DNA of 64,000 bases from Rhodoblastus sp. 17X3 (GTDB lineage: Bacteria; Pseudomonadota; Alphaproteobacteria; Rhizobiales; Beijerinckiaceae): positions 372,001 through 436,000 of the forward strand of contig NZ_JASHHX010000001.1 in assembly GCF_030056575.1 (NCBI RefSeq). The letters run 5' to 3'. A program made the position numbers and the translations under genes. How positions within the stretch are numbered: the stretch's first letter is position 1; every line of letters begins with the position of its first letter. A model generated the notes under the pieces. The model had not been told where the DNA came from. It saw nothing but the letters and a program-made list of their open reading frames with translations, and ran no database searches. Below are positions 44,406-63,931 of the stretch, piece after piece.

Positions 44406-45185
44406 ATGTCTCAGGGGGGCAGGCAGGTGAGCATTTCGCGGGCTTATGACCAAGCGCCGGCGCTCGCGGCGCGGCGCGGCCGCGGCGAGCCCGTCCGTCC
44501 GCGCATCGCCATCGTCGTCGGCATGAAGTCGGAGGCGCGGATCGCCGCCTCCAGCGCGGACCTGACGATCATCGGCGGCGGCTCGGCGGCGCAGGTCGAG
44601 AATGGCCTCGCCCGCGCCCATCATCGCGCCAGAGCGGATGGCAAGCCGCTGCATGGCGTGCTGAGCTTCGGCATTGCGGGCGCGCTGGCGCCGCATCTGC
44701 GCCCCGGCGATGTTCTGCTGCCGCACGCCGTCCATGCGGGCGGCAAGGCCTATGCCTGCCACGCGGGCTGGACTGGCCAGTTGTCGCGTCATTTGCCGCA
44801 CGCGCATAGCGGAGCGCTGCTCGGCGTCGATCAGCCGATCCTGACCCCGGAGCACAAGCGTCGTCTGCACGGCGCCCATGGCGCGCTGGCGGTAGATATG
44901 GAATCGCATGGCGCCGCGCGTTTCGCGGCCATGAACGGCCTGCCTTTCGCGGCATTGCGCGCGATCGCCGATCCGCAGGGACGGGCGATTCCCCCCGCGG
45001 CCATGGCGGGATTCAAGCCCGATGGAACGGCGGATGTCTGGGCGGTTCTCGCCGCGCTCGCGCTCAGCCCGGGCCAGCTCGGCGGTCTGATCCGCACGGC
45101 CTTCGACGCCCGGGCCGGAATGGCCGCCTTACTCGGCAGCCGCCGTGCGCTGGGGAGCTTTTTCGGCTTCGATGATCTCGTTTAG
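44406..45185 (+). CDS. hpnG: Hopanoid-associated phosphorylase HpnG
   Basis: Nucleoside-phosphorylase-like protein of 259 residues that removes adenine from adenosylhopane to give ribosylhopane phosphate. Landmarks are IAIVVGMKSEARIA, LSFGIAGALAPHLRPGDVLLP, LAVDMESHGAARFAAMNGLPF (the PNP-type D-x-E region) and LRAIADPQGRAIP. The start is uncertain: ATG at 44406, or GTG at 44427 with a GGGGGGCAGG run upstream. It is convergent with hpnH and their coding ends overlap by 57 bases. HpnG and HpnH carry out consecutive side-chain steps. Confidence 0.9.
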   Translation: MSQGGRQVSISRAYDQAPALAARRGRGEPVRPRIAIVVGMKSEARIAASSADLTIIGGGSAAQVENGLARAHHRARADGKPLHGVLSFGIAGALAPHLRPGDVLLPHAVHAGGKAYACHAGWTGQLSRHLPHAHSGALLGVDQPILTPEHKRRLHGAHGALAVDMESHGAARFAAMNGLPFAALRAIADPQGRAIPPAAMAGFKPDGTADVWAVLAALALSPGQLGGLIRTAFDARAGMAALLGSRRALGSFFGFDDLV

Positions 45186-46277
45186 CTGCTGGCCGACCTG
45201 CGCCGTATAGGCGTATTCGGCCGGGCGCTGCTTGTCGAGCGGGATGTCCGGCGCGAAGGGGCCTTCGGTATTCACGCCGAACAGCGCGACCTTGAGCGCC
45301 GCGAAGGGGTTCTTCACCGCATGGGTGACGGCGCTCGGCTCGAAGCCGCAATGCACCATGCAATCGGCGCATTTTTCATAATTGCCGACGCCATAGGAAT
45401 CCCAGTCCGTTGTCTCCATCAGCTCCTTGAAGGTCTTGGCGTAGCCTTCGTTGAGCAGATAGCAGGGACGCTGCCAGCCAAACACCGTGCGCAGCGGATT
45501 GCCCCACGGCGTGCAGTGATAGGTCTGGTTGCCGGCGAGGAAGTCGAGGAACAGCGACGATTGGAAGAAGGCCCATTTGCGGCCCTTGTCCCCGCGCCGG
45601 AAGATCGCGCGGAACAATTCCTTGGTCTTGTTGCGGTTCAGGAAGTGGTCCTGATCGGGGGCGCGCTCATAGGCGTAGCCCGGCGAGACGGTGGCGCTGT
45701 CCACGCCCATGCCCTTGAGCGTGTCGAGGAAGCCGGCGACGCGCTCGGGATCGGCGTCGTTGAACAGCGTGCAATTGATGGTGACCCGGAAGCCCTTGGC
45801 GCGTGCGGCCTTGATCGCTTGCACCGCGCGGTCGTAAACGCCGCTCTGGCAGACGGATTTGTCGTGCATCTCGCGGTCGCCGTCGAGATGGACCGAGAAA
45901 TTGAACGCCTGCGAGGGCTGGAACTCGTTCATTTTCTTTTCGAGCAGCAGGGCGTTGGTGCAGAGCGTGACGAATTTGCCCCGATCCAGCGCGCCGCGCA
46001 CGATCTTGCCGATTTCCTTGTGCAGCAGCGGCTCGCCGCCGGCGATCACAACCACCGGCGCGCCGCATTCGTCGATCGCCTCCATGCAGTCTTCGTAGGG
46101 CAGGCGCTGGTTCAGGATCTTGTCGGGATAGTCGATCTTGCCGCAGCCGGCGCAGGCGAGATTGCAGCGGAACAGGGGCTCCAGCATCAGAACGAGGGGA
46201 TAGCGCTTCCGTCCGAGCAGATGCTGCTTGAGGATATAGGCGCCGATCCGCGCCCCCTGAATCACCGGGATTCCCAT
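45129..46277 (-). CDS. hpnH: Adenosylhopane synthase HpnH (radical SAM)
   Basis: Radical SAM enzyme of 382 residues that adds 5'-deoxyadenosine to diploptene, the first step in extended hopanoid side chains. The cluster motif CNLACAGC gives C38, C42 and C45 (FRCNLACAGCGKIDYP). It also has VVIAGGEPLLHKEIGKIVRG and the YHCTPWGNPLRTVFGWQ and CADCMVHCGFEPSA blocks. The start at 46277 follows GAGG (CAGAGGAGCGGCA before ATG); the upstream frame lacks homology. The 3' end overlaps hpnG by 57 bases. It diverges from hpnN with about 220 bases between. Confidence 0.95.
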   Translation of the reverse strand: MGIPVIQGARIGAYILKQHLLGRKRYPLVLMLEPLFRCNLACAGCGKIDYPDKILNQRLPYEDCMEAIDECGAPVVVIAGGEPLLHKEIGKIVRGALDRGKFVTLCTNALLLEKKMNEFQPSQAFNFSVHLDGDREMHDKSVCQSGVYDRAVQAIKAARAKGFRVTINCTLFNDADPERVAGFLDTLKGMGVDSATVSPGYAYERAPDQDHFLNRNKTKELFRAIFRRGDKGRKWAFFQSSLFLDFLAGNQTYHCTPWGNPLRTVFGWQRPCYLLNEGYAKTFKELMETTDWDSYGVGNYEKCADCMVHCGFEPSAVTHAVKNPFAALKVALFGVNTEGPFAPDIPLDKQRPAEYAYTAQVGQQLNEIIEAEKAPQRTAAAE

Positions 46278-46498
46278 TGCCGCTCCTCTGGCGTAGGCGC
46301 CCCTGCGCCCTTGAATTGTCAGCTTTCCAACGGACCAATAGGCCGAACTCGCCTTTCGTCGCAAGCAAAAACCGGACTGCTCCGAATGGCTTGGAGACGA
46401 ATAATGCCCCGGGCTGGTTCCCTTTCCTTAAAAAATAAAGCAATTTCCGGGCGCCGGCGGCGGCGATCCAGCCCGAATCGCGTCGGCGCGGGAACGAC

Positions 46499-49162: not shown

Positions 49163-49698
49163 CCGCCGCTCCCGCCAAAATCGGCGTCCTGACCATTTCC
49201 GACCGCGCCAGCGCCGGGCTTTATGAGGATATTTCCGGCCCGGCCATCGCCGAATGGCTCGGCAAGGCCCTGTCCGTGCCATATGAACTGGACGTCCGGG
49301 TGATCCCCGACGGTTTCGAGCGCGTGCGCGACGAACTGATCGACATGGCCGACAGGGCGGGCTGCTGCCTTGTCCTGACTACGGGGGGCACCGGCCCGGC
49401 CCCGCGCGACCTGACGCCGGAGGCGACTTTGGCCGCCGCGCATCGCGAAATGCCGGGATTTGGCGAGCTGATGCGCATGAAAAGCCTGGAGCAGACGCCC
49501 ACGGCCATTCTGTCGCGCCAGACGGCGGCCCATCGCGGCGCCTGCCTCTTCGTGAACCTGCCCGGCAGCCCGCGCTCCATCGATCTCTGCCTCAAGGCGG
49601 TCTTTCCGGCCATCCCCTATTGCGTCGAGCTGATCGGCGGCGCATGGCTGGACACGCATGAGGATTTTGTAAAGACAGTGCGGCCGATGAAAAAATAG
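49159..49698 (+). CDS. mog: Molybdopterin adenylyltransferase (Mog/MoaB type)
   Basis: Activates molybdopterin with AMP before molybdate insertion, 179 residues, the usual Mog length. Motifs are IGVLTISDRASAGLYEDISGPAI, LVLTTGGTGPAPRDLTPEA (MPT-binding GGTG and D-x-T-P), ILSRQTAAHRGACLFVNLPGSPRSI and KAVFPAIPYCVELIGG. Its ATG overlaps the hpnN stop (ATGA), so it is coupled to a hopanoid transporter. The functional connection is not obvious; modBC lies 37 kb away. Confidence 0.93.
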   Translation: MTAAPAKIGVLTISDRASAGLYEDISGPAIAEWLGKALSVPYELDVRVIPDGFERVRDELIDMADRAGCCLVLTTGGTGPAPRDLTPEATLAAAHREMPGFGELMRMKSLEQTPTAILSRQTAAHRGACLFVNLPGSPRSIDLCLKAVFPAIPYCVELIGGAWLDTHEDFVKTVRPMKK

Positions 49699-49829
49699 GC
49701 TGAAGCGCTGCTTTTTCGCCCGTGGAATTTTTCATGGGGCGACTATGATAATCTGCGCCGGTCGCTAAAATTTATGCAACGCGGCCTTCGGGCGGCGTGG
49801 ACTCGTGTACGGGTTGTTCAGGGGGTTTG

Positions 49830-52349
49830 ATGCTGGGACCGACGCCGGGGAGCGCCTCGAACGCCAAGGCGAGGCGCCTGGTGGAGATGACGGCGGCCTA
49901 TCGCCCGCTTGACGGCGCGCCCGATGAATTCATTGGCGCGGACGGATGTCCGCGCGGCCATTGGCTTGAATTCTTCGACAAGCTGGCGGGACTGGGCAGC
50001 GACGACATCGCCCGCCGCTTCGAGGCCATCGAGCGCAACATCCGCGAGCAGGGCGTGTCCTATCGCGCCTATGGCGAGACGGTGGACCGCACCTGGCCGC
50101 TCAGCCACATGCCGTTGTTGATCTCGGAACAGGACTGGGCGGTGATCGAAGCCGGCGTCATGCAGCGCGCCGAGGCCTTCGAAGGGCTGCTCGCCGATCT
50201 TTACGGCAAGGGCGAGCTGGTCTCCGAGGGCTTTCTGCCCGCCGCGGCGGTGACCGGAAGCGCCGACTTCCTGCATCCGATGGTCGGGATCAAGCCGCGC
50301 GGCGGCCGCTATCTCAGCCTATACGCCGCCGATCTCGGTCGCGGGCCCGACGGCCAGTGGTGGGTGCTCAACGACCGCACCCAGGCGCCCTCCGGCCTCG
50401 GCTACGCGCTGGAGAACCGCCTTAACCTGTCGCGCGCCTTCCAGACGATCTACCGCGACATGAACGTGCCCCGGCTGGCCCCCTTCTTCCAGGCCTTTCG
50501 CGCCGGGTTGGCGGAGCTCGCCAGCCGCTCGGAGCCGCGCATCTGCCTGCACACGCCCGGCCCTTACAGCGAAACCTATTACGAGCAGGCCTATCTCGCG
50601 CGCTATCTTGGCTTCGTTCTGGTCGAGGGCGCCGATCTCGTCGCGCGCGACGGCCTCGCCCATGTCCGCACCATAGCGGGCATGAAGCGCGCGGACGTGA
50701 TCTGGCGCCGCATCGACGCCGATTTCGCGGATCCGCTGGAGCTGAAGGGCGGCTCCCAGCTCGGCGTGCCGGGTCTGGTCGAGACGATCCGTCAGGGCAA
50801 TGTCGCGGTCGCCAACGCCCTCGGCGCCGGCGTCGCGGAAACCCCGGCGCTTCTGGGCTTCATGACCTCCATCGCCGGCCATCTGCTCGGCGAAAAACTG
50901 ATCTTGCCGACCATCGCGACCTGGTGGTGCGGGCAGGAGGCGGAGCGCGAATATGTGCTCGACCGTCTCGAGGACATGGCCATCGCCCCGGCTTTCGGCG
51001 CCTCGACCTCCCGCGCCCTGCTCGGCCGCTCGGTCGTGGCGGGCGAACTGACGAAAGAACAGCGCGAGAAGCTCGCGAACGCGATCCGCGAGCGCGGCGC
51101 GGATTTCGTTGGCCAGGAGGTTGTTCGCCTCTCGACCACGCCGGTCTGGGTGGACAACAGGCTGGAGCCGCGTCCCTTTGTCCTGCGCGTCTATGCGGCC
51201 ATGGGGCCCGACGGCAAGTTTCAGGTCATGCCCGGCGGTTTCTGCCGCATTTCCGACCGCGTGGATTCGCGCGCCCTCGCCATGGGGCAAGGGGTGCAGA
51301 CCTCCGACGTCTGGATCGCGGGCACCCGCCCGGTCGAGCCAACCACCCTGCTGCCGCGCGGCGACACGGTTTCGATCCGCCGCATCATGGGCAATCTGCC
51401 GAGCCGCGCCGCCGACAACCTGTTCTGGCTCGGACGCTATATCGAGCGCGCCGAGGCGACCTTGCGCCTGATCCGCTGCCTGACGCGGCGGGCGATCGAG
51501 AACGAGGACATGTTCCAGGAAGGCGCCACCACCACGCAGCGCCTGCGCAAGTTGCTCAGCGACTGGGGCGCCGTCCCGGCCAAGCTGAAAGTCCCGCTGA
51601 CGCCGCAGGGATTTCTCAACGCGGCCATGTTCAATGTCGACGAATATGGCTCGGCGGTGTCGCTGGCGCGCGCCTCGCAGCGCACGGCCTCGGTGATCCG
51701 CGAACGCCTGTCGAGCGACACCTGGCGCATTGTCGTCGATTTGAGCCAGAAGCTGGAGAATGGCCGCGTTCCGCTCGACGAGCCGGAAATCCTGGAGCTG
51801 ACCGATGGCGCGCTGCAGGCCCTCGCCAGCATTTCCGGGCTGGCGCAGGAGAACATGAACCGGGTCGCGGGCTGGCGCTTTCTCGAAATCGGCCGCCGTC
51901 TCGAGCGCAGCGTCAACACCTGCCGCTTCATTCGCGCCTTCGGCATGGAGCAGGCCCGCGCCACCGATTTCGACGTTCTGCTCGACCTGATCGATTCGCA
52001 GATCACCTATCGCTCGCGCTATATTTCCGGCGTCGCGCCTTATCCAGTGCGCGACATGGCGCTGCTTGATCCCTTTAATCCGCGCTCCGTCGCCTTCCAG
52101 ACCGAAAGGCTCGCCGAACATATCGCGACCCTGCCGGTGCTGAAGCTCGACGGCATGCTGGAGGCTCCCAATCGAATCGCGATCGAGGTCAACGCCGATC
52201 TCGCCACCAAGGTCGCCGCCTGCATCACAGCGGAATTCGTCATCTCGGTCGAGCGCCGGCTGATGGGGCTGGCCGACGCCGTCGCCGCGCGTTATTTCCT
52301 GCAGGGCGCCCATGCGGCGCAGGCGGAAAAACAGGTGGGCCTCGCATGA
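49830..52349 (+). CDS. Circularly permuted ATP-grasp / alpha-E fusion protein
   Basis: An 839-residue protein joining two domains that are separate genes in the second locus at 61-63.7 kb. Residues about 1-510 are a circularly permuted type 2 ATP-grasp ligase (VVIEAGVMQRAEAFEGLLADLYG region, HTPGPYSETYYEQAYLARYLG, LVEGADLV, RRIDADFADPLELKGGSQLG). Residues about 525-830 are the all-helical alpha-E domain (SRAADNLFWLGRYIERAEAT). Start: ATG at 49830 after a GGGGG run; an upstream GTG at 49797 is less likely. It overlaps the transglutaminase gene (ATGA). Comparative work predicts peptide-bond-forming activity; substrate unknown. Confidence 0.88.
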   Translation: MLGPTPGSASNAKARRLVEMTAAYRPLDGAPDEFIGADGCPRGHWLEFFDKLAGLGSDDIARRFEAIERNIREQGVSYRAYGETVDRTWPLSHMPLLISEQDWAVIEAGVMQRAEAFEGLLADLYGKGELVSEGFLPAAAVTGSADFLHPMVGIKPRGGRYLSLYAADLGRGPDGQWWVLNDRTQAPSGLGYALENRLNLSRAFQTIYRDMNVPRLAPFFQAFRAGLAELASRSEPRICLHTPGPYSETYYEQAYLARYLGFVLVEGADLVARDGLAHVRTIAGMKRADVIWRRIDADFADPLELKGGSQLGVPGLVETIRQGNVAVANALGAGVAETPALLGFMTSIAGHLLGEKLILPTIATWWCGQEAEREYVLDRLEDMAIAPAFGASTSRALLGRSVVAGELTKEQREKLANAIRERGADFVGQEVVRLSTTPVWVDNRLEPRPFVLRVYAAMGPDGKFQVMPGGFCRISDRVDSRALAMGQGVQTSDVWIAGTRPVEPTTLLPRGDTVSIRRIMGNLPSRAADNLFWLGRYIERAEATLRLIRCLTRRAIENEDMFQEGATTTQRLRKLLSDWGAVPAKLKVPLTPQGFLNAAMFNVDEYGSAVSLARASQRTASVIRERLSSDTWRIVVDLSQKLENGRVPLDEPEILELTDGALQALASISGLAQENMNRVAGWRFLEIGRRLERSVNTCRFIRAFGMEQARATDFDVLLDLIDSQITYRSRYISGVAPYPVRDMALLDPFNPRSVAFQTERLAEHIATLPVLKLDGMLEAPNRIAIEVNADLATKVAACITAEFVISVERRLMGLADAVAARYFLQGAHAAQAEKQVGLA

Positions 52350-53245
52350 TTTACGATATCCGCCACGTCACCACCTACAGCTATGAAACGCCGGTGGCCT
52401 TTTCGCTCTGCGCCCTGCGGCTGCGGCCGACCAGCCGTGCGGGCCAGCGCGTGATCGACGTCAAGATCGACATCGATCCGCCGGCCGCCAAGCGCATCCA
52501 GCGCGAATGTTTTTTTGGCAACAGCTTCGAGATCGTCCGGATCGAGGCGGAGCATCGCGAGCTTTCGGTCACGGCGCGGGCCCGGATCGCGGTGTCGCGG
52601 CCCGTCGCGCCGGCGACGACGCCAAGCTGGGAGGAAGTGCGCCAGCTCGCCTTCAGCGTCGAGGATCTTGGGCCGCAATCGCCGGCCCATTTTATCTACG
52701 CCAGCCGCGCCATCACGCTCGACGAGCCGGTCGTCGCCTATGCCCGCGAAAGTTTTCCGCCCGGACGCGAGATTCTGGACGGCGCCGTGAACCTGATGGA
52801 GCGGATCTGGGACGATTTCGATTACGATCCCAAGGCGACTCTGGTCTCGACCCCGCTCGGCGAGGCTTTCGAGAAGAAGCGCGGCGTCTGCCAGGACTTC
52901 GCCCATATCATGATCGCGGGCCTGCGCGGCATCGGGCTGCCGGCGCGCTATGTCAGCGGCTACCTGCGCACGGTGCCGCCGGCGGGGCAGGAGCGGCTCG
53001 AAGGCGCCGACGCCACCCACGCCTGGGTCGCGGTATGGTGCGGTCCGTTCGACGGCTGGGTCGGGCTCGATCCCACCAACAAGATCCTTGTCGGCGACGA
53101 TCACATCATTCTCGCGGAAGGCCGCGACTATTCGGACATCTCGCCGATCGACGGCGTCATTCTCTCCTCCGGCGGGCAGGACGTCGATGTCGGCGTTGAT
53201 GTCATCCCGGTCGCGTCGGAAAGCGTCCCCCTGACCTTCGGCTAA
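52346..53245 (+). CDS. Transglutaminase-like cysteine peptidase family protein, intact triad
   Basis: A 299-residue protein. The N-terminal beta domain ([20 protein letters not shown]) is typical of bacterial transglutaminase family proteins. The catalytic triad is complete: C182 in [20 protein letters not shown]225 in ATHAWVAVW and D242 in [19 protein letters not shown] starts directly at the ATG, which overlaps the stop of the ATP-grasp/alpha-E gene (ATGA). In this system the enzyme may cut or transfer a peptide made by the ATP-grasp partner; that is inference. Confidence 0.92.
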
Positions 53246-53388
53246 TCGCGCCTGAAACGCTCCAGGCGCCTCTTTTTTGTGCGTGTCGCCCGTCGCACCG
53301 CCGAAAAGCCTGCAATTCGGACGTGACAGGCCCGCGCTCCCATCAGCATAAATGGAATAACTCGCCGCCAAGAAAGGCACTTGCCGCA

Positions 53389-56300
53389 ATGGCCATCCTC
53401 GCGAAACTCCACCACGCCACCCGCTATTCCTATGACCGTCCCGTCACCTTGGGACCGCAGATCGTCCGGCTGCGGCCGGCGCCTCATTGCCGCACGCCGG
53501 TGCTGGCCTATTCGCTGAAAATCCAGCCGGAAAACCACTTCATCAACTGGCAGCAGGATCCGCACGGCAATTATCTGGCGCGGCTGGTCTTCCCGGAACC
53601 AACCGACGAATTCTCCATCACAGTCGACGTGCTCGCTGAAATGGCGGTCTATAACCCGTTCGACTTCTTCATCGAGGAATATGCGCAGACCGTTCCGTTC
53701 AAATATGCCGAGTCGCTGACCAAGGACATCTCCGCCTATATCGGCGCCGATCCGGCCGGTCCGCTGCTGCAGGCCTATCTCGACTCGATTCCGCGCAAGG
53801 AGACCCCCACGGTCGATTTCCTGGTCGCGCTGAACACGGCGCTGCAGCAGAAGATCAAATATCTCGTGCGCATGGAGCCCGGCGTCCAGACGCCGGAGGA
53901 GACCCTGCAGCTGGCCTCGGGCTCCTGCCGCGACACCGGCTGGCTGCTGGTCCAGATTCTGCGCCATCTCGGCTTCGCCGCGCGTTTCGTCTCGGGCTAT
54001 CTCATCCAGCTCAAGCCGGATGTGAAATCGCTCGACGGCCCCTCGGGCACGGACCACGACTTCACCGACCTCCACGCCTGGGCCGAAGTCTATATTCCCG
54101 GCGCGGGCTGGGTCGGCCTCGATCCGACCTCCGGCCTGTTCGCGGGCGAGGGCCATCTGCCGCTCGCCGCCACGCCGCATTATTCCTCCGCCGCGCCGAT
54201 CGAGGGCTATATCGCCGGCGACGCCCACGCGGATTTCGGCTTCGAGATGACCGTGGAGCGGATCGACGAGAAGCCGCGCGTCACCGCGCCCTTCTCCGAC
54301 GAGGCCTGGGAGGCGCTGGACAAGCTGGGCAGGAAGGTCGACGTCGATCTCAACGCCCAGGACGTGCGCCTGACCATGGGCGGCGAGCCGACCTTCGTCT
54401 CGATCGACGATTACCAGTCGCCGGAATGGAACACCGAGGCCGTCGGCCCGACCAAGCGCAGCCTGGCCGACGATTTGACCCGCCGCCTGCGCGAGGCCTT
54501 CGCGCCCAACGGCTTCCTGCATTACGGCCAGGGCAAATGGTATCCCGGCGAGAGCCTGCCGCGCTGGACCTTCTCGATCTATTGGCGCAAGGACGGCCAG
54601 CCGATCTGGCGCAACCTCGATCTGATCGCGCGCGAGAAGCCCGCGGTCTGGGCGACGCCCGACCAGGCCCGGCAGATGTGCGAGACCATCGCCGCCAAGC
54701 TGGAGATCACCGAGGATTACATCATCCCGGCCTATGAGGATCCGGCGGAATGGGTGCTCAAGGAGGCGGAGCTGCCGGTCAATGTGACGCCGGGCGATTC
54801 CAAGCTCTCGGAACCAGAGGAACGCGCCCGCTACGCCCGCGTGTTCGATCAGGGCCTGAATGTGCCGACCGGCTTCGTCCTGCCGGTGCAACGCTGGAAC
54901 GCCCAGACGCGCCAACGCTCGTGGATCAGCCAGAAATGGCCGCTGCGCCGCGGCGCCCTGTTCCTCAAGCCCGGCGATTCCCCGGTCGGCTTCCGCCTGC
55001 CGCTGGCCTCGCTGCCCTATATTCCTCAGAGCGCCTATCCCTTCGTCGTGGAACAGGATCCGACGGAATGGCGCCGCGCCTTGCCGTCCGCAGACGAAAT
55101 CGCGCAGAAATACCGGCGCGGCAATTACGAGACCGACCGGCAGGTCCTCAACCAGCAGTTGGTGGGCTTCACCGCCGATGTCAGGACCGCCGTGGCGGTC
55201 GAGCCGCGCGACGGGCGCCTGCACATTTTCATGCCGCCGGTCAGCTATCTCGAAGATTACCTCGAACTGCTCGCTGCCGTTGAAGCCAGCGCCGCCGATC
55301 TCGGCATGCCAGTCCATATCGAGGGCTATCCGCCTCCGCTCGATTGGCGCTTGCAAGTCATTCGCGTCGCGCCGGACCCGGGCGTGATCGAGGTCAACGT
55401 CCATCCGTCCGACAATTGGAACGAACTGGCCGCGATCAGCCGCGAGCTTTATGACATGGCCCGCGAATGCCGGCTGGGAACAGAAAAATTCATGGTCGAC
55501 GGGCGCCATGTCGGCACCGGCGGCGGCAATCATGTTGTCATCGGCGGCGCCACGCCCAATGATTCGCCCTTCCTGCGCCGTCCCGACCTGTTGAAGAGCC
55601 TCGTGGTCTATTGGCAGCGCCATCCGGCGCTGTCCTATCTGTTCTCCGGCCTTTTCATCGGCCCGACCTCGCAATCGCCGCGCGTGGACGAAGCGCGGCA
55701 CGACTCGCTCTACGAATTGGAGATTGCGCTGGCCAATACGCCGCGGCCCGGCGAGGGCCAGTGCCCGCCGTGGCTGGTGGACCGCCTCTATCGCAACCTG
55801 CTCACCGACGTCACCGGCAACACCCATCGCGCGGAAATCTGCATCGACAAGCTCTATTCGCCGTCGGGTCCGACGGGGCGTCTGGGCCTGGTCGAATTCC
55901 GCTCGTTCGAAATGCCGCCGGATGCGCGGATGTCGCTGGCGCAGCAGCTTCTGTTGCGCGCCCTGGTCGCCTGGTTCTGGCGCGAGCCTCAGGAAGGCGA
56001 ACTGGTCCGCTGGGGCACCAGCCTGCATGATCGCTTCATGCTGCCGCATTACGTCTGGCAGGATTTCCTCGACGTGCTCGACGACCTCCAGCGCGCGGGC
56101 TATGCGTTCGACCGCGAATGGTATCGCGCGCAGTTTGAATTCCGCTTCCCCTTCTATGGCCAGGTCGAGCATTCCGGCGTGAAGCTGGAAATCCGGCAGG
56201 CTCTGGAGCCCTGGCACGTCATGGGCGAAGAGGGCGCCATCGGCGGCACGGTGCGTTTCGTCGATTCCTCCGTCGAGCGCCTCCAGGTGCGCGTCGAGGG

Positions 56301-56694
56301 CTTCAACGAGGAGCGCCATATCGTCACCTGCAATGGCCGGCGCCTGCCGCTCGGCTCGACGGGCCGGCGCGGTGAGGCCGTCGCGGGCGTGCGCTTCAAG
56401 GCCTGGCAGCCTTATTCCGGCTACCACCCGACCATCTGGCCGCATACGCCGCTGACCTTCGACATCATCGACAAATGGAGCAAAAGGTCGCTGGGCGGCT
56501 GCGTCTATTACACGGCCCATCCCGGCGGCCGCAATTACGAGACCTTCCCGGTCAATTCCTATGAAGCGGAGGCGCGCCGCCTCGCCCGCTTTCAGGATCA
56601 CGGCCATACGCCGGGCAAGGTCTGGCTGCCGTCGGCGGAAGTCACGGGCGACTTCCCGACCACGCTCGACCTGCGCCGTCCGGTCGGGGTTTAG
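53389..56694 (+). CDS. Transglutaminase-DUF2126 fusion protein
   Basis: A 1101-residue protein, the longest in this locus. The N-terminal 280 residues are a complete transglutaminase: C180 ([19 protein letters not shown]), H229 ([11 protein letters not shown]) and D245 (GLDPTSG). The rest, from about 310, is DUF2126: [62 protein letters not shown] and [18 protein letters not shown]2126 shows distant likeness to COOH-NH2 ligases of the glutamine-synthetase type. The start at 53389 follows AGAAAGGCA. It is 143 bases after the previous transglutaminase gene. Function of the family is unproven. Confidence 0.92.
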
Positions 56695-56779
56695 GCGGCC
56701 GTTCAAATCGGGGCGTCGGGCTTAACTTGAAGGAAAGACGCGCGCGTTTACGCTGGCGCGTCGCCTTCAGGAAAGCCCG

Positions 56780-57538
56780 ATGACCGAACCCGCCTCTCCG
56801 CCCGACGCCTTGCGCCTGCGCGATTTGCGCAAATCTTTCGGCAAGCCCGCCGTGGACGGGCTCGACCTGACGATCCGGCCCGGCGAGTTTTACGCCTTGC
56901 TTGGCGCCAATGGCGCGGGCAAGACCACCACCCTGCGCATGGTCGCGGGCCTGCTGCAGCCCGACAGCGGCGAAGTCTCGATCTGCGGGATCGACGCGCG
57001 GCGCAACCCGCTGGAGGCCAAGGCGCTCACCGCATGGCTGCCCGACGAACCGCTGCTCTATGACAAGCTCGCGCCGCTGGAATATCTCGAATTCGTCGCC
57101 GGTCTCTGGGGCATGGATTCGGATGAAGCCGGCGCCCGCGCGGAAGACCTGCTGCGCCGCCTCGGCCTGTGGGAGCAGCGCAACCAGCGCTGCGAAGGTT
57201 TTTCACGCGGCATGCGGCAAAAGGTGGCGCTGGCGGGCGCGCTGATTCATGAGCCGCGCCTGCTGATGCTGGACGAGCCCTTGACCGGGCTCGACGCCGG
57301 CGCCGCGCGTCTGGTCAAGGACATGCTCGCCGAACAGACCCGGCAGGGCGTGGCCGTGGTGCTGACGACCCATATTCTGGAAGTCGCGGAAAAGCTCGCC
57401 GACCGCATTGGGATCATCGCCGATGGCAAATTGATCGCCGAAGGCGATCTCGCGCAATTGCGACGTCTGAGCGCCATCGCGAGCGCGAGCCTCGAAGATG
57501 TGTTCCTCGATCTCACCGCGCGCGGAGTGGCGGCGTGA
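56780..57538 (+). CDS. ABC transporter ATP-binding protein
   Basis: A 252-residue ATPase. Walker A GANGAGKTT (in LLGANGAGKTTTLRMVAG), a Q-loop region, signature FSRGMRQKVALAGAL (degenerate LSGGQ), Walker B RLLMLDEPLTGLD and switch histidine in LTTHILEVAEKL. This is the DrrA/CcmA-like class of exporters. Start ATG follows AGGAAAG. Its stop overlaps the permease start (GTGA), so they form one transporter. It sits between the two ATP-grasp/transglutaminase loci, which raises the possibility that it exports their product; adjacency is the only evidence. Confidence 0.92.
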   Translation: MTEPASPPDALRLRDLRKSFGKPAVDGLDLTIRPGEFYALLGANGAGKTTTLRMVAGLLQPDSGEVSICGIDARRNPLEAKALTAWLPDEPLLYDKLAPLEYLEFVAGLWGMDSDEAGARAEDLLRRLGLWEQRNQRCEGFSRGMRQKVALAGALIHEPRLLMLDEPLTGLDAGAARLVKDMLAEQTRQGVAVVLTTHILEVAEKLADRIGIIADGKLIAEGDLAQLRRLSAIASASLEDVFLDLTARGVAA

Positions 57539-59058
57539 GGCCGCGTTCTCTGACGCTCGCTCGCCTCGTCCGCCACGATCTGGCCATTTCATGGCGGCGC
57601 CTGTGTGGCTTCCTGCGCGCGAAAACGACGACCCGGGCCTTGATCGTTCTGGGGCTGGCGTCGGCGGTGCTGCACCTCGCGGCCTGGCCTTTAGCCTTGG
57701 GCCTGCTCGCGCTGGAGGCGCGTGACGGCGCTGTCGCGCTTGACGGGTTGGGCTTCGTCATCGTGCTGCCCTGGCTGATGTCGCAGGGCCTCACCGGCGC
57801 GACGCGAGCGCTCTATTCGCGCGGCGATCTCGACCTGCTGCTGTCGGCGCCGCTGCCGCCGCAAAAAATTCTGGCCTCGCGCGCTCTGGCTGTGGGCATC
57901 GAAAGTTTCGGCGCCGTCGGCATGTTCCTGCTGCCGGTGGTCAATATGGCGGCGCTGCTCGGGGGGGCGCGCTGGCTCGCGGTCTATCCGGCGCTCGCCA
58001 GCGCCGTGCTGATGGCGACGGGCGCGAGCTTCGCCGCGACGCTCGGCCTTTTCCGCCTGCTGGGGCCGAAACGGACCCGGGCCGCGACGCAGGTGATCGC
58101 CACTTTGGTCGGCGCGTGGTTCGTGATCTGCGCGCAGATCTTCAATTTCATTCCTGCCGATAGCCAGAAGGCGTTGCGGGAGGCGCTCGCGCACCCCGCG
58201 CCCGGAAGCTGGCTCGATCCGCAAGGCGCGCTCTGGCTGCCCGCCCGGGCGGCGGCGGCGGAAGGACGCGCGCTGGCGCTCTGGGTCCTGCTGGGCTGCG
58301 GCGCCTTCGTCCTGGCGGTTCGCGCCTTGGGCCCCGCCTTCGCGCGCGGCGCGTTGATCGCGGCGGGCGAGGGGAGGGCGCGGGCGACGACCCGCGACGC
58401 GCGCTTCCGGTGCGAGCGCGCCGGTGCGCTGCGCCGCAAGGAATGGCGGCTGCTTGCGCGCGATCCCTATCTGCTGTCGCAGATCCTGCTGCAATCGCTT
58501 TATACCCTGCCGGTGGCGCTGATCATCTGGAAGAGCCTCGGACCCAACGGCTCGGTGGCGCTTTCCGTCGCGCCTGCGCTCGTCGCCATCGCCGCGCAGC
58601 TCAGCGCCGCGCTCGCCTTCCTGGCGGGGTCGAGCGAGGACGCCGGCGATTTCGTCGCCACGGCGCCGGTTGCGCCGGGCGAAATCCTTCGCCGCAAGAT
58701 CGAGGCCATCGCCGTTCCGGTCGCGCTGCTGCTGGCCCTGCCGCTCGCCGGCGTGGCCTTCGCCGCGCCGCGCATCGGACTCGTGACGTTTCTTTGCGCG
58801 GCGGCGGGGGCGGCCTCCACCGCCACTCTGAATTTCTGGAAACCGCTGGAGAACCGGCGCGGCGACCTCATCAAGACCCACGCCCAGAACAAGCTGGTCG
58901 GCCTGGTCGAGCATGGGCTTTCGATCTGCTGGGCGCTGGCCGCGCTGCTGCTCTGCCTTGGCTCCTGGATGGCGCTGGCGCCAATCGCCATCGCGCTGGC
59001 CCTGTTGTGGGCGAACAAGCCGCGCGCGCGCCGCGTCAAGGCTTTCGCCCCCGCCTGA
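57535..59058 (+). CDS. ABC exporter permease
   Basis: A 507-residue integral membrane protein with about ten to twelve hydrophobic segments and Arg-rich cytoplasmic loops. LLLSAPLPPQKILASRALAVG and FVATAPVAPGEILRRKIEAIAVP are duplicated loop motifs, one in each half, as in large two-repeat ABC-2-like permeases; DPYLLSQILLQSLYTLPV marks the middle. The start is GTG at 57535, overlapping the ATPase stop; MRPRSLTLARLVRHDLAISWRR is a plausible lead. Pairs with the ATPase upstream. Substrate unknown. Confidence 0.88.
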   Translation: MRPRSLTLARLVRHDLAISWRRLCGFLRAKTTTRALIVLGLASAVLHLAAWPLALGLLALEARDGAVALDGLGFVIVLPWLMSQGLTGATRALYSRGDLDLLLSAPLPPQKILASRALAVGIESFGAVGMFLLPVVNMAALLGGARWLAVYPALASAVLMATGASFAATLGLFRLLGPKRTRAATQVIATLVGAWFVICAQIFNFIPADSQKALREALAHPAPGSWLDPQGALWLPARAAAAEGRALALWVLLGCGAFVLAVRALGPAFARGALIAAGEGRARATTRDARFRCERAGALRRKEWRLLARDPYLLSQILLQSLYTLPVALIIWKSLGPNGSVALSVAPALVAIAAQLSAALAFLAGSSEDAGDFVATAPVAPGEILRRKIEAIAVPVALLLALPLAGVAFAAPRIGLVTFLCAAAGAASTATLNFWKPLENRRGDLIKTHAQNKLVGLVEHGLSICWALAALLLCLGSWMALAPIAIALALLWANKPRARRVKAFAPA

Positions 59059-59081
59059 CGCCTTGCAAGGCGTCCTTCGCC

Positions 59082-59113
59082 AAAAGAAAAACGCCGGCCC
59101 CTGGGGACCGGCG
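59082..59113 (-). terminator. Rho-independent terminator for the 97-residue gene
   Basis: On the minus strand CGCCGG (59113-59108) pairs with CCGGCG (59097-59092) around a 10-base loop and is followed directly by TTTTTCTTTTG. It lies 57 bases past the stop of the minus-strand gene at 59170. A second palindrome, GACGCCTT/AAGGCGTC at 59057-59074, overlaps the permease stop on the plus strand. Confidence 0.75.
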
Positions 59114-59169
59114 CCAAGTTGGCCACTTTCTCGCGGTTTCCCGCGGAGAGCAGCCTTCGACATCGCGCT

Positions 59170-59463
59170 TCAGCTGCGCGACATCATATAGAGCAATTGC
59201 GTCTCGAAGGCCGGGATCTTGGTCGCGCCGAACGCGCGCAAGGCGGCGGGCGCGTCCACGGCGACCACGGAATATCCGCCGGCCGCGCTTTTTTTCATCA
59301 GTTCCGAAATCTCTTCCGCGAAAGCTTTGGCCGGATCGATTTTCGCAGGCAGGTCCTGCGGCGACCATTTTGCGGCCCAGCCCCAGATCGTGTCATGCCC
59401 GGCCGGAATATTTGTGGATATGAAATCCTGAGGGAGGTAGGACCTCCCGTTCGCATAGGGCAT
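59170..59463 (-). CDS. Orphan 97-residue protein of unknown function
   Basis: No family was recognised. From ATG at 59463 it has an N-terminal aromatic-rich half (YANGRSYLPQDFISTNIPAG, then HDTIWGWAAKWSPQDLP) and a helical C-terminal half (DPAKAFAEEISELMKKSAAGG, DAPAALRAFGATKIPAFETQ). No signal peptide or membrane segment. The start is strongly marked: GGGAGGAAAA lies 7 bases upstream, almost identical to the site before the HExxH gene at 43979. GC content is below that of the neighbours and it has its own terminator. It sits alone between the ABC exporter and the lrp gene. Possibly a recent acquisition. Confidence 0.6.
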   Translation of the reverse strand: MPYANGRSYLPQDFISTNIPAGHDTIWGWAAKWSPQDLPAKIDPAKAFAEEISELMKKSAAGGYSVVAVDAPAALRAFGATKIPAFETQLLYMMSRS

Positions 59464-59666
59464 TATTTTTCCTCCCGCCAAGATGGCCGCCTAAAAAGGC
59501 GCGGCCTCTCGCTTGTCCTGTGGCGTTGACCAGCCCGGCTCGTTCTTCTTGTCGAGAATGGAACGTGTCCGTTTGCCGCCTTTAGCGGTCTTGTGCTTTA
59601 GTCGTACCATAGTGCGTAGCATCATGTAACAGGAATGCGACGCCCGGCAATTGACCCAGCGCAAAT

Positions 59667-60137
59667 TCAGCGCTCGCTTCCTGCCTCAGGAATTCTATAG
59701 GCCGAGCTGGCCTTGACCCGCTCCATCGCGAAGCGCGAGGTGACTTTTTTCAGCGGCACCGCCGAAATGAGCCGCTGGTAAAAGGCGTCATAGGCGGCGG
59801 TGTCGACGACGACGACGCGCAGCAGGTAATCGACGTCGCCCGCCATGCGATAAATGTCCATCACCTCGGGCATGGCGGAAACGGCGGCGGCGAAACGCGC
59901 CAGCCAGGGCTGGGAATGATCCTCCGTCTCGATGGAGACGAAGACGGTGAGGCCGAGGCCGATCTTCTGCGGATCGACCAGCGCGACGCGGCCCAGAATG
60001 ACGCCCGCGTTTTCCAGCTTCTGCACCCGCTTCCAGCACGGAGTCGGCGACAGTCCGACCGCACGCGCGAGATCCGCGACGGCGATATCGGCTTTGTCCT
60101 GCAGAATGGTCAGGATTTTACGGTCAATCGCGTCCAT
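59667..60137 (-). CDS. Lrp/AsnC-family transcriptional regulator
   Basis: A 156-residue regulator. The N-terminal helix-turn-helix (LTILQDKADIAVADLARAVGLSPTPCWKRVQKLENAGVI) is followed by the RAM/AsnC ligand domain (GLTVFVSIETEDHSQPWLARFAAAVSAMPEV, AGDVDYLLRVVV, VPLKKVTSRFAMERVK). Lrp-type proteins respond to amino acids and often act on adjacent genes. The ATG at 60137 is preferred to the GTG at 60146, which is too close to the GGGAGG site. It lies 49 bases after the transglutaminase gene on the same strand, so it may be part of that operon. Confidence 0.92.
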   Translation of the reverse strand: MDAIDRKILTILQDKADIAVADLARAVGLSPTPCWKRVQKLENAGVILGRVALVDPQKIGLGLTVFVSIETEDHSQPWLARFAAAVSAMPEVMDIYRMAGDVDYLLRVVVVDTAAYDAFYQRLISAVPLKKVTSRFAMERVKASSAYRIPEAGSER

Positions 60138-60186
60138 GCCCCTCACGCCTCCCTCGGACTCTGGCGAGATTATCGGCGGAAGGCAA

Positions 60187-61020
60187 TCATTGCTGGCCTT
60201 GCCAGCTCGCCTGACGGCTGACGTCCACCTTCAGCACCGCGATCGAGGCTTCCCGCGCATAGCCGAAGACGGCCGAGCGCCGGGGCGCCGCGCCTGCGAA
60301 ATCGAGGCCCAGGGCGATCCGCAAATATTCGTCGCGCGGGCAGCAGCCGAAGGCGGGGTCGAAGCCGATCCAGCCGATCGGTTCGACAAAGACTTCCGCC
60401 CAGGCGTGATGCGCCCCTGCTGCGCCGACGCCTTCCGTCCCGAGGAAAAAGCCGGAAATCAAGCGGGCCGGAACATCGACGCCGCGCGCGGCCGCGACGA
60501 AGACCTGGGCCAGTTCGCGCGCGGAGCCGGCGCGCGAGGCGAAGGCCTCCCGCGCCGGGCGGGGCGTCTCGCCTTCGCCCGGCGCGAAGGCGCAGGCCTC
60601 GTGAAGCGCGTCGTTGAGGACATGCATGCGGCCGAGCGGATCCGTCTCGCGCGACAGGGCGTCCTGCGTGAAGGCGAGCAAATCCTTGTCGGCAAGCGTC
60701 GCTGCCGTGTGGCGAAGATAGACGTCGAGCGGCAATTTTTCGGGCAGGCCGCGCACGACTCCGGCCGTGTCATTGGTCTCGATTTCGCCCTCGGCCATGA
60801 TGCTCAGCTGCTCCAGCGGGCCGTCATGGGAGCAGGAATGGACGATGTTGCCGAAGGCGTCCTCATTGCGGCGCATGCGCGCATCCGGCAGGACGTCGAC
60901 GCGCCAGTCCTTGATCTCCTGGCCGTCGAAGCCGCGGGGCGTGAGACGAAGAACCTGGTTCATCGCGCGAACCGGGTCGGCATAGGAAATCTGGAAGTGA
61001 TACTGGACAGAGGCGCGCAT
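60187..61020 (-). CDS. Transglutaminase-like protein lacking the catalytic cysteine
   Basis: A 277-residue member of the transglutaminase family. The N-terminal domain (VQYHFQISYADPVRAMNQVLRLTPRGFDG) and the second half of the core are intact: H205 in GAHHAWAEVFVEP and D221 in IGFDPAFG. The nucleophile position is changed: where the two relatives have GVC and GSC, this reads RAGSARELAQVFVAAARG, so the cysteine is Ala167. It is thus predicted to be inactive as a peptidase, but may bind substrate or partner. The gene follows the alpha-E gene with 80 bases between and precedes an lrp gene. Confidence 0.87.
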   Translation of the reverse strand: MRASVQYHFQISYADPVRAMNQVLRLTPRGFDGQEIKDWRVDVLPDARMRRNEDAFGNIVHSCSHDGPLEQLSIMAEGEIETNDTAGVVRGLPEKLPLDVYLRHTAATLADKDLLAFTQDALSRETDPLGRMHVLNDALHEACAFAPGEGETPRPAREAFASRAGSARELAQVFVAAARGVDVPARLISGFFLGTEGVGAAGAHHAWAEVFVEPIGWIGFDPAFGCCPRDEYLRIALGLDFAGAAPRRSAVFGYAREASIAVLKVDVSRQASWQGQQ

Positions 61021-61100
61021 GGAGCGAGAGTCTCCCGCTGGCTGATTCGACCTTGTTGTTATAGCCGCCCGGAAAGCCGTCGTCCCTCCGGGCGAAAGGC

Positions 61101-62060
61101 TTAGCCGATCAAATATTGTTCGGCGATCTCGGTCCCGAGCCGGTTGTTGTCGGTGACGAAGCCATCGACGAATTCATGCAGGCCGGACTGGAAAATATCC
61201 TTGATCGAAGTGCTTTCCAGACGCCGCTTCATATTGCGGGCGTGGCGCTGCGCCGGTCCCTGGCGGCCATATTGATTGCCGATGGCGTCGAGGAAACGCA
61301 CGATATTGTCGCAGCAGGACAGGAGCGAGCGCGGCATTTCCTGACGCAGGATCAGCAGGTCCGCCACGTTCCAGGGCTTGATGCTCTCGCGATAGACCCA
61401 GTGATAGGCGGTGAGCGCCGAAACCGAGCGCAGGATCGCGGTCCACTGGAAATAATCGACCGAGCCGCCGACGGCTTCCTGCTCGGGCAGCAACACGTGA
61501 TATTTCACGTCGAGCACGCGGGCGGTGTTGTCGGCGCGCTCGACATAGACGCCAAGGCGGGAGAAATAATAGGCGTCGTTGCGCAGCATGGTGCGGTAGC
61601 CGGAGCCGTCGTAAAGGCTCGACGTCTGCTTGACATATTCGAGGAACTTGATCAGCTCCTCGCGGTCGATCCGGCCCAGCTCCTTCTGCACTGCTTCGAA
61701 CTTCTTCAGCTCGAGCCAGGCGCTGTTGATGCCTTCCCACATTTCAACGGTGAGCGCGGTGCGCACCGCGCGGGCGTTGGTGCGGGCGAACTCGATGCAA
61801 TTGCGGATGCTTGAGGGATTGCGCGCGTCGAAGGCCAGATAGGCGATGACGCTGGCCTCGTTGGGCTCCGGGAAATGCTCATAGAAGGTCTCGTCGGCTC
61901 CCGACGCGATCAGCACGCTCTGCCATTCGTCCTGGGCGGAGGCGTAGGTCTTCGGCAGGGCCGCGATGCGGCTGGAGGCCTCGATCAGGCGGGCGAGGAA
62001 ATCCGCGCGCTCCAGATAGCGCGAGACCCAGTAGAGATTGTCGGCGGTGCGGGAAAGCAT
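61101..62060 (-). CDS. Alpha-E domain protein (stand-alone)
   Basis: An all-alpha protein of 319 residues that matches the alpha-E domain throughout: LSRTADNLYWVSRYLERADFLARLI at the start, NPSSIRNCIEFARTNARAVR in the middle, and the ERADNTARVLDVKYH block near residue 175. It is the separate counterpart of the C-terminal half of the 49830-52349 fusion protein (compare SRAADNLFWLGRYIERAEAT). Alpha-E proteins accompany circularly permuted ATP-grasp ligases; the biochemical role is unknown. It lies between the ATP-grasp and transglutaminase genes in one operon. Confidence 0.93.
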   Translation of the reverse strand: MLSRTADNLYWVSRYLERADFLARLIEASSRIAALPKTYASAQDEWQSVLIASGADETFYEHFPEPNEASVIAYLAFDARNPSSIRNCIEFARTNARAVRTALTVEMWEGINSAWLELKKFEAVQKELGRIDREELIKFLEYVKQTSSLYDGSGYRTMLRNDAYYFSRLGVYVERADNTARVLDVKYHVLLPEQEAVGGSVDYFQWTAILRSVSALTAYHWVYRESIKPWNVADLLILRQEMPRSLLSCCDNIVRFLDAIGNQYGRQGPAQRHARNMKRRLESTSIKDIFQSGLHEFVDGFVTDNNRLGTEIAEQYLIG

Positions 62061-62142
62061 GGGGCGACCTTGACAAGATTGGGCAAGACAGGAATGGCGT
62101 TGCCGGATCGCCCCGCGAGCGGCGACGATCCGCGTCGGCGGA

Positions 62143-63606
62143 TCAGGGCGTGGCGGCGTCCGTCTCGAGCACCCAGGTGTCCTTGGTGCCGCCGCCCTGG
62201 CTGGAATTGACGACCAGTGAGCCTTCCTTCAGCGCGACGCGCGTCAGCCCGCCGGGGACGACGCGCACGCCGTCGGAGCCGGAGAGCACGAAGGGGCGCA
62301 GATCGACATGGCGTGGCGCGACGCCGCCGAGGAAGGACGTCGGGCAGGTCGAAAGCGACAGGGTCGGCTGGGCGATGAAATTGTCCGGCGCGGTCAGGAG
62401 CTTCTTGCGGAAGTCCTCGATCTGCTCCTTGGTCGCGTGCGGCCCGACCAGCATGCCGTAACCGCCGGAGCCATTGACCTCCTTCACCACCAGTTCGGAC
62501 AGGTGGTCGAGGACATATTTCAGGGCGTCGGGCTCGCGGCAGCGCCAGGTGGCGACATTCTTCAGCTTCGGCTCCTCGCCGAGATAGAAGCGGGTGATCT
62601 CCGGCATATAGGTGTAGATCGCTTTGTCGTCGGCGACGCCCGCGCCCACGGCGTTGGCCAGGGTGACATTGCCGGAAAGATAGGCGCCCATCAGCCCGGC
62701 GGCGCCGAGCACGGAATCCGGGTTGAACACCAGCGGGTCGATGAATTCGTCGTCGACGCGGCGATAGATCACGTCGACCCGCTTCGGGCCCTCGGTGGTT
62801 CGCATATAGACCACGTCGTCCTTCACGGTGAGGTCGCCGCCTTCCACCAGTTCCACGCCGAGCTTGTCGGCGAGGAAGGAATGTTCGTAATAGGCCGAAT
62901 TGAACTGCCCGGGCGTCAGCACCACGATGTTCGGCTCGCTCGCGCATCTCGGCGGGGCGACGGAGCGCAGCGAGGCGAGCAGGGAATCGGGATAGTTCTC
63001 CACCGGCATCACGGCGTGTTCCGCGAAGAGATCGGGCGCCAGCCGGATCATCATCTCGCGGTTCTCCAGCATGTAGGAGACGCCGGACGGCGTGCGGCAA
63101 TTGTCTTCCAGGACATAGAAATCCTGATCGTCCGTGCGCACGATGTCGATCCCGGCGATATGGGTCCAGATGTCGTGCGGCGCGCGATGTCCCTGCATTT
63201 CGGGCCGGTAGCAGTCATTGCGGAACACCAGGTCCGCGGGCACCACGCCGGCGCGGATGATCTCCTGCGCGCCATAGACGTCGGTGAGGAACATGTTCAG
63301 CACCTTGACGCGCTGGACCAGCCCCGCTTCGAGCCGCAGCCATTCGTCATGGCCGAGCAGGCGCGGGATGATGTCGAAGGGAATCAGGCGCTCGGCGGCC
63401 TCCTTGTCGCCATAGACGGCGAAGGTGATGCCAATGCGGCGGAACAGCATCTCCGCCTGTTGCCGGCGCGAATCCAGCAGTCCGGGCGGGGACGTCTCCA
63501 GCCATTTGGCGATGCGGCTATAGAGGGCGCGCGCCGCTCCGTCGCCTTCGGTCATCTCGTCGAAACAGGGCAAGGTCATCGGCTTGATCGCCTTTTTGGA
63601 ACTCAT
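62143..63606 (-). CDS. Circularly permuted type 2 ATP-grasp protein (stand-alone)
   Basis: A 487-residue predicted ligase. Blocks of the family are VLNMFLTDVYGAQEIIRAGVVP, YRPEMQGHRAPHDIWTHIAG, VLEDNCRTPSGVSYMLENREM, LTPGQFNSAYYEHSFLADKLG, VDVIYRRVDDEFIDPL and KEVNGSGGYGMLVGPHATK. It resembles the N-terminal half of the fusion protein at 49830. The start is uncertain: ATG at 63606 is used, with alternatives at 63651 and 63579 and no strong ribosome-binding site at any. First gene of the ATP-grasp, alpha-E, transglutaminase operon, 82 bases before alpha-E. Activity is predicted only. Confidence 0.9.
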   Translation of the reverse strand: MSSKKAIKPMTLPCFDEMTEGDGAARALYSRIAKWLETSPPGLLDSRRQQAEMLFRRIGITFAVYGDKEAAERLIPFDIIPRLLGHDEWLRLEAGLVQRVKVLNMFLTDVYGAQEIIRAGVVPADLVFRNDCYRPEMQGHRAPHDIWTHIAGIDIVRTDDQDFYVLEDNCRTPSGVSYMLENREMMIRLAPDLFAEHAVMPVENYPDSLLASLRSVAPPRCASEPNIVVLTPGQFNSAYYEHSFLADKLGVELVEGGDLTVKDDVVYMRTTEGPKRVDVIYRRVDDEFIDPLVFNPDSVLGAAGLMGAYLSGNVTLANAVGAGVADDKAIYTYMPEITRFYLGEEPKLKNVATWRCREPDALKYVLDHLSELVVKEVNGSGGYGMLVGPHATKEQIEDFRKKLLTAPDNFIAQPTLSLSTCPTSFLGGVAPRHVDLRPFVLSGSDGVRVVPGGLTRVALKEGSLVVNSSQGGGTKDTWVLETDAATP

Positions 63607-63931
63607 TTCGGGGCGTTTTGCGCCGCGAGCGCAAACGGCCAGGGATTTCATGTTTGTCAGTCTGAATCGCCTGCGCCGGTTGCGCTTTGACCTAACTTAA
63701 ATGCCGCCTCGCGCGATTTGACAGTCTAAATTTTAAGCTTGGCGCCCGATAGCGTGCGGATGAATGTTTCAATCCTGATTGGCGCCTATAAATTAGGCAG
63801 CTTCGCCAAATGGCTCATGCCGCCGGTTCTTCTGACCATTATTTCCCAATCGCAATTTGCCTGCCGGCGCCGCGATGCGGTAAAAGCGCGCACGGGTCTT
63901 CGAGCCCGCAAGCGCGAAATTGGTCCGGTCG
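63607..63931. other. Intergenic region between the ATP-grasp operon and the gene entering the right edge
   Basis: No gene is seen in these 325 bases. The strip around 63690-63800 is AT-richer and presumably holds divergent promoters. A perfect TTGACA occurs at 63718-63723 on the plus strand but without a convincing -10 at the right spacing. Part of the region could belong to the ATP-grasp gene if its start is at 63651. Confidence 0.5.

Follow-up and report, generated by a model that had tools for sequence, protein, structure and literature searches.

Two ATP-grasp/alpha-E loci of Rhodoblastus sp. 17X3 as probable complementary halves of one amide-bond-forming system

Described relatives and the two loci of the window

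A close described relative of the genes considered here is the Anbu operon, which, according to two reports, is composed of genes for an ATP-grasp protein, an alpha-E protein, a transglutaminase and the N-terminal nucleophile (Ntn) hydrolase Anbu (PMC6376114, PMC5666114). The same reports describe release of phosphate from adenosine triphosphate (ATP) for the Y. bercovieri relative of the protein called B3 below (PMC6376114), upregulation in nitrogen-limited P. putida, and an experiment with Anbu as the bait in which no specific interactions were detected (PMC6376114, PMC5666114). In further papers, I35_5080-5083 of B. cenocepacia H111 (DUF404/407, DUF403, transglutaminase-like and large transglutaminase-like) are NtrC/sigma54 dependent (PMC5491218), PP_2685 and PP_2688 of P. 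putida show higher levels with nitrate than with ammonium (PMC8050072), and the same domains are tied to urea metabolism in marine metagenomes (PMC3597751). Here we analyse two loci with these families in a 64,000-nucleotide stretch of Rhodoblastus sp. 17X3, hereafter the window. Locus A, on the plus strand, encodes a fused ATP-grasp/alpha-E protein (A1), a transglutaminase-like protein (A2) and a transglutaminase fused to the putative amidoligase domain DUF2126 (A3); locus B, on the minus strand, encodes separate transglutaminase-like (B1), alpha-E (B2) and ATP-grasp (B3) proteins.

We conclude that loci A and B probably complement each other as the two halves of a single system, of the Iyer/Aravind type, that uses ATP to form amide bonds. 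Since locus A has lost the active site of its ATP enzyme and locus B that of its transglutaminase, one system in two clusters is the more likely arrangement. What carries this conclusion, at the level of sequence, is the loss of residues, the co-occurrence and clustering of the loci, the association between Cys loss in B1 and the presence of locus A, and purifying selection. An earlier sequence-only reading had proposed the gene content, order and strands of both loci, which are borne out by frame mapping and Pfam, and the assignment to the ATP-grasp, alpha-E and transglutaminase families, which Pfam confirms. Its guess of one joint pathway also gains support from the co-occurrence, the clustering and the complementary losses. 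Its description of the loci as holding the same modules was correct as to the shared families but overstated, because DUF2126 is missing from locus B and the modules common to both do not have the same active-site residues.

Locus B matches the Anbu operon in its first three genes and in their order, but no Anbu gene was found in the window's genome and B1 is without the catalytic Cys. The PF00227 profile search of this genome (4.18 Mb) returned a single proteasome-family match (L062:1471-3374), and an Lrp gene, not Anbu, follows B1. From the look of the sequences we take this match to be an HslV-like gene adjoining an HslU-like one, and with the sole proteasome-family match being of this kind, no Anbu was found. 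The domain content of the B. cenocepacia H111 cluster matches parts of the composite A and B cluster; the window differs, however, in that neither the sequence ahead of A1 nor its 349 bases upstream of B3 contain a sigma54-like site. With at most one mismatch allowed, the sigma54-like pattern gave 26 matches against 29 expected by chance, and we set sigma54/NtrC control at these loci aside.

Within the searchable literature the system is known in outline, and the complementary degeneration, together with the dependence of one locus on the other, appears to be new. The partial sources covered by our literature search, which did not reach Iyer et al. 2009, nowhere mention a degenerate fused ATP-grasp or a Cys-less B1 and name neither a product nor a substrate of the system; DUF2126 goes unmentioned in the 37 papers listed by one search.

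Co-occurrence and clustering of the two loci

The relatives sample comprised 60 searched genomes, the window's own included, with 80 stretches mapped; the wider samples comprised 105 genomes across the class and 150 across the phylum, and further loci were added. Among the 80 named loci listed, in a list that may omit records very near the window's genome, the closest fused proteins (at most 63% identity) belong to an uncultured Rhizobiales bacterium, Methylocella, Methylocapsa and other Beijerinckiaceae. The system is common, Alpha-E being present in 86 of the 150 phylum genomes, and the window's source genome has just two matches, A1 and B2.

The fused protein occurs in 93 genomes (33 from the relatives sample, 17 from the class sample and 43 further ones from the phylum sample). 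For 18 of these, namely 15 alphaproteobacteria of the phylum sample plus G180, G260 and G272, the fused form was scored from the hit table alone, where a long frame gave a second match to Alpha-E, the one in G260 being weak (118 bits). The split locus accompanies the fused protein in 92 of the 93; in the remaining genome, G009, the contig ends inside B1, so that no B2 or B3 is found there. Locus B without locus A is frequent.

Outside the Alphaproteobacteria, 28 genomes of other classes of the phylum have both loci, and in 25 of them A and B lie within 15 kb. These 25 clusters hold B3, B2, A1 and A2, and A3 is present in 24; B1 is missing from 22, intact in one (G290) and not scorable in two that lie at contig ends. 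Plasmid pNK81 of Caballeronia sp. NK8 illustrates the arrangement, with B3, B2, A3, A1 and A2 on one strand, no B1, and the EDN motif and ATP loop in B3 only. Among the Alphaproteobacteria, the loci stand side by side in 5 of 33 genomes of the relatives sample, as judged from Alpha-E positions, plus G009 (only B1 on the contig), and in 2 of 17 of the class sample. Proximity of the fused and split forms is thus not special to the window, as the sequence-only reading had supposed; it is usual in other classes and occasional in this one. Separation of the loci and of the ATP-binding cassette (ABC) genes between them had been named there as a sign against a link. Such separation is seen for the ABC genes, as described below, and for A and B in most sampled alphaproteobacteria.

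As a separate observation, two class-sample genomes with locus A, G099 and G153, have a weak proteasome-family match, consistent with Anbu, directly after B2, and B1 is gone.

Of the alternatives to complementary halves, the one that survives best holds that the loci are two independent copies, redundant or differently specialised, each working alone. The matching domain names agree with it, as do the lack of linkage in most sampled alphaproteobacteria and the many genomes in which locus B stands, and so must work, alone. Locus A, however, is without an intact ATP-grasp site and is found without B only at a contig end; in the genus, B is without an intact transglutaminase; and most composite clusters amount to one intact ATP-grasp with A-type transglutaminases only. 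We regard independent copies as unlikely.

Active-site residues of the ATP-grasp and transglutaminase proteins

A1 (49797..52349, plus strand; 850 amino acids, or 839 from the alternative start at 49830) is a CP_ATPgrasp_2 domain (Pfam 2e-138) fused to Alpha-E (3e-66), and B3 (62143..63651, minus strand) is a stand-alone circularly permuted ATP-grasp (Pfam 2e-165) with intact active-site residues. The two are homologous across 484 profile columns (hhalign probability 100). B3-type proteins bear the motifs E-D-N, K...GG.G and R-H-x-D-L-R-P, the first two being E182-D183-N184 (63100..63108, minus strand) and K390...G396-G397-Y398-G399 (62455..62484, minus strand) in the window. We take E-x-N to be the metal motif and K...GG.G the ATP loop, as in glutathione synthetase, and their conservation itself is measured. 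In A1-type proteins, E-D-N is mostly replaced by [GSNA]-D-R and the loop by variable sequence. The window's A1 has N-D-R at the former position (50370..50378, plus strand), an unlike stretch in place of the glycine-rich K..GSGG loop (50985..51008, plus strand), and R-P-x-V where split proteins have R-H-x-D-L-R-P. Judged by E-x-N and K...GG.G, A1 does not qualify as a functional circularly permuted ATP-grasp ligase and B3 does, with the residues invariant in a 19-row alignment.

The distinction holds across 155 fused-type and 137 split-type frames, the latter corresponding to 136 distinct sequences (the window's B3 was counted from two overlapping loci) and including one gene in two pieces. EDN is found in 0 of 155 fused-type versus 135 of 137 split-type frames, the two exceptions being fragments (one gene cut by a contig end, one in two pieces). 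The K-G-G-G loop is likewise found in 0 of 155 versus 135 of 137, with one KGGR and one fragment remaining, and the Asp of PRHxDLRP in 0 of 155 versus 136 of 137. The two ATP-grasps thus differ outright in active-site residues, which the sequence-only reading had expected to mark unrelated systems; in our view it points to complementary parts instead.

The structure model of A1 has a predicted local distance difference test (pLDDT) score of 83.9, and its best Foldseek match in the PDB is 3n6x (E 1.1e-31), followed by glutathione synthetases at 1.7e-11 and weaker. The former, a putative glutathionylspermidine synthase from Methylobacillus flagellatus, has the same fold as the ATP-grasp part of A1 and matches both B3 and A1 in sequence, but retains ATP-site residues that are lost in A1. 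Eukaryotic glutathione synthetases also match the fold of this part, in which those residues are absent, as do the glutathione-synthetase-like effectors GSS22 and GSS30 of Globodera pallida (5oeu, 5oev, 5oet), which are eukaryotic and come from an unrelated context. The fused and split families share 74 columns with an identical residue conserved at 90% or more in both. All 28 fused and all 36 split proteins compared (from 30 and 48, over-long frames being excluded) retain the two E-R pairs of Alpha-E; the split form in the window is B2 (61101..62060, minus strand; Pfam 2e-94). The ratio of nonsynonymous to synonymous substitution rates (dN/dS) of the A1 ATP-grasp part is 0.04-0.13 in five pairs, equal to the 0.05-0.12 of B3. 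From the shared columns, the kept E-R pairs and the B3-like dN/dS, it follows that the A1 domain is maintained, although not as a canonical ATP-grasp. We therefore predict, from sequence, that A1 is a pseudo-ATP-grasp in which the fold is kept and the expected ATP- and metal-site residues are gone.

It is also conceivable that a reshaped site keeps A1 catalytically active, or that the protein puts ATP to some other use, for example nucleotide sensing. The replacement D-R-[TA]-Q-A-P-S-G is conserved in many fused proteins, a constraint as strong as that on B3 means that the site has a function, and lone residues survive among the 155 frames (4 have the Glu, 8 the residue of the Lys column and 11 the His of PRHxDLRP). 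The replacement of the glycine loop, however, varies in sequence and length and falls partly in a region of low model confidence (residues 392-396), and not one of the 155 fused-type frames has the Asn, the Gly pair or the Asp of PRHxDLRP. An active A1 seems to us similarly unlikely.

Separately, 13 split ATP-grasps (L241, L243-L247, L249, L251, L253-L255, L258 and L259) form a clade with mostly a K-P-V-G-E-[SA]-G-G loop instead of K-E-V-x-G-S-G-G, and the adjacent transglutaminase is often missing there.

The transglutaminases show the opposite distribution. In B1 (60187..61020, minus strand; Pfam and alignment), the codon at the catalytic Cys position (60520..60522, minus strand) encodes Ala, giving G-S-A-R in place of G-V-C-Q. 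All 12 mapped copies from the genus have Ala at this position, in the context G-[SC]-A-R, and keep the His and Asp, so that B1 does not hold the Cys-His-Asp triad of a transglutaminase-like cysteine enzyme. Intact triads are found in A2 (52346..53245, plus strand; Pfam) and in the transglutaminase part of A3 (53389..56694, plus strand, with an in-frame upstream start at 53323; Pfam, E=0), as well as in all other mapped copies bar one broken extra A2 piece in G007. The dN/dS of B1, 0.17-0.27, is above that of B2 and B3 (0.01-0.15) and well below 1. Additional copies were also seen: G002 (L142:8417-14900) carries another Cys-less B1, accompanied by Lrp and located next to mog and hopanoid genes, outside its A and B cluster; G007 may have a similar one on a short contig; and broken extra DUF2126 pieces beside the intact copy in G009 (L080:10091-10686) are a sign of local duplication.

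The state of B1 was scored in 135 split loci from 134 genomes, with contig ends leaving four unscored (G059, G091, G224 and G228). The Cys is lost in 24, of which 23 occur with fused A, one with A3 only and none with neither. It is intact in 58 (19 with fused A, 2 with A3 only, 37 with neither), and B1 is absent from 49 (37, 3 and 9, respectively). Ten of the 24 Cys-less loci come from one genus, and therefore the 24 are not independent events. On the B3 tree they fall into 12 clades of Cys loss, all with A or A3, and the contexts that replace the Cys differ (GSAR, GGAE, GDAS, GAAS, GHAR, GDSA, GIPQ, GLPQ, GSPT and others). This is a quick tree from which the fragment G010 was excluded, and in an earlier 84-row version 29 of 81 inner branches were weakly supported. 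We also simulated 12 losses placed on the tree by branch length, accepting draws with 0.5-2x the observed number of lost tips; zero Cys losses without A occurred in 3 of 200,000 accepted draws. In the final counts and the simulation, the transglutaminase of G277 is assigned to A3; the tree and the pairs tests still include it as B1.

Several points weigh against complementary halves. A and B lie apart in most sampled alphaproteobacteria, and the loss of canonical residues in A1 is no proof of lost ATP use. Nineteen fused-A loci and two A3-only loci retain the B1 Cys, and because of these 21 loci it can be said that A does not force the loss. When loss and absence are pooled, the simulation is weaker, with 2,274 of 200,000 draws as extreme (~0.011). 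The independent-pairs test is concordant for Cys loss, with mostly 1-5 informative pairs, and does not reach 0.05. B1 is also absent from nine loci for which no fused A and no A3 turned up; five of these nine belong to a single ATP-grasp clade, mostly with a GE[SA]GG loop. Finally, the glutamine-synthetase fold suggested for DUF2126 comes from a low-confidence model (pLDDT 65.9) and weak Foldseek matches that include glutamine synthetases (best 8fbp, E 0.035, probability 0.82). PDB sequence searches with A3 returned the transglutaminase part and one chance-level match, with no convincing match for the DUF2126 part.

The nine loci without B1, the low power of the pairs test and the concentration of Cys-less loci in one genus would also fit a decay of B1 unrelated to locus A, through shared ancestry or general relaxation. 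Against it, genomes with neither A nor A3 have 0 Cys-less and 37 intact B1, and the 12 separate clades of loss all have one or the other. We consider unrelated decay rather improbable.

Neighbouring genes and the proposed system

Between the two loci lie genes for an ABC transporter ATPase (56780..57538, plus strand; Pfam), an ABC permease (57535..59058, plus strand; no Pfam match), an orphan protein of 103 amino acids (59170..59481, minus strand; no Pfam match) and an Lrp/AsnC regulator (59667..60146, minus strand; Pfam). In the 11 genomes of the genus (G000-G010), the orphan adjoins the Lrp gene in nine, and the permease occurs in eight, either close to the B-Lrp block, about 11 kb from it or, in G010, on separate short contigs. 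The window's genome and G003 show the full order A-ABC-orphan-Lrp-B on a single contig, and G010, whose contigs are broken, is compatible with it; in G009, A, orphan, Lrp and B1 share a contig that has no ABC genes. In G001, G004, G005, G006 and G008, A1-A2 lie beside hopanoid genes and mog, A3 is separate and the B-Lrp-orphan block is intact; the ABC genes are close to this block in three of the five (G004, G006 and G008) and about 11 kb away in the other two (G001 and G005). G002 and G007 have A and B adjoining and divergent, without ABC genes.

Among the mapped genomes, those of this genus are the only ones with the ABC genes next to locus A or B, and the linkage of Lrp and orphan to B was likewise seen only in them. 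Eleven permease matches are listed from other genera, and none of them lies at an A or B locus. This genus-only linkage makes the central transporter and regulator lineage-specific company; we reject them as core members of the system, and the sequence-only reading does not hold where it counted them as conserved. A peptide natural-product cluster, with the ABC pair as exporter, Lrp as regulator and the orphan as precursor, would suit the window's gene order and the frequent B-Lrp-orphan-ABC linkage in the genus, but with the listed outside permease matches elsewhere and the orphan being a conserved protein of about 100 amino acids beside the Lrp gene, it is highly improbable.

Farther out, the region upstream of A1 (45129-49698) presumably encodes an HpnH-like radical S-adenosylmethionine (SAM) protein, an HpnN-like resistance-nodulation-division (RND) protein and a MogA/MoaB-like protein. 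Most genomes of the genus, and three further genera of the family (G013, G019 and G031), have a mog-like gene a short way upstream of A1-A2. Just past the window's end, L064:1920-6331 holds, by the look of the sequence, genes for a membrane-fusion protein and an RND transporter, divergent from B3.

For the complementary-halves system itself, we infer a partnership of A1 with B3, a division of labour and the chemistry of the product. B3 would be the working ATP-grasp ligase, using ATP to activate a carboxylate and then joining it in an amide bond, and B2, encoded beside it, and the alpha-E part of A1 would be helical partners. A1, a fold-preserving pseudo-ATP-grasp with a second, intact alpha-E, would most likely act as a non-catalytic partner or substrate-holding subunit. 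The thiol chemistry, by which the amide or peptide product would be cleaved or transferred, would fall to A2 and the transglutaminase domain of A3, and DUF2126 in A3 may be a second ligase with a glutamine-synthetase-like fold. B1 would be a demoted, Cys-less transglutaminase under weaker purifying selection, dispensable where locus A is present. By analogy with the published relatives, the system may have a role under nitrogen limitation.

More broadly, we would give about even chances to a widespread bacterial peptide- or protein-modifying machine composed of an active ATP-grasp, an obligate pseudo-ATP-grasp/alpha-E subunit and the transglutaminase-ligase A3, in which the arrival of A repeatedly made B1 redundant, to be kept as a pseudoenzyme or removed. 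If this is true, the Anbu operon would be the ancestral simple form and the A and B composite the derived, two-engine form. The fused ATP-grasp of locus A is a predicted pseudoenzyme, the intact ligase is in locus B, and the role of transglutaminase appears to have passed from B1 to A2 and A3; this would show which proteins are to be studied together.

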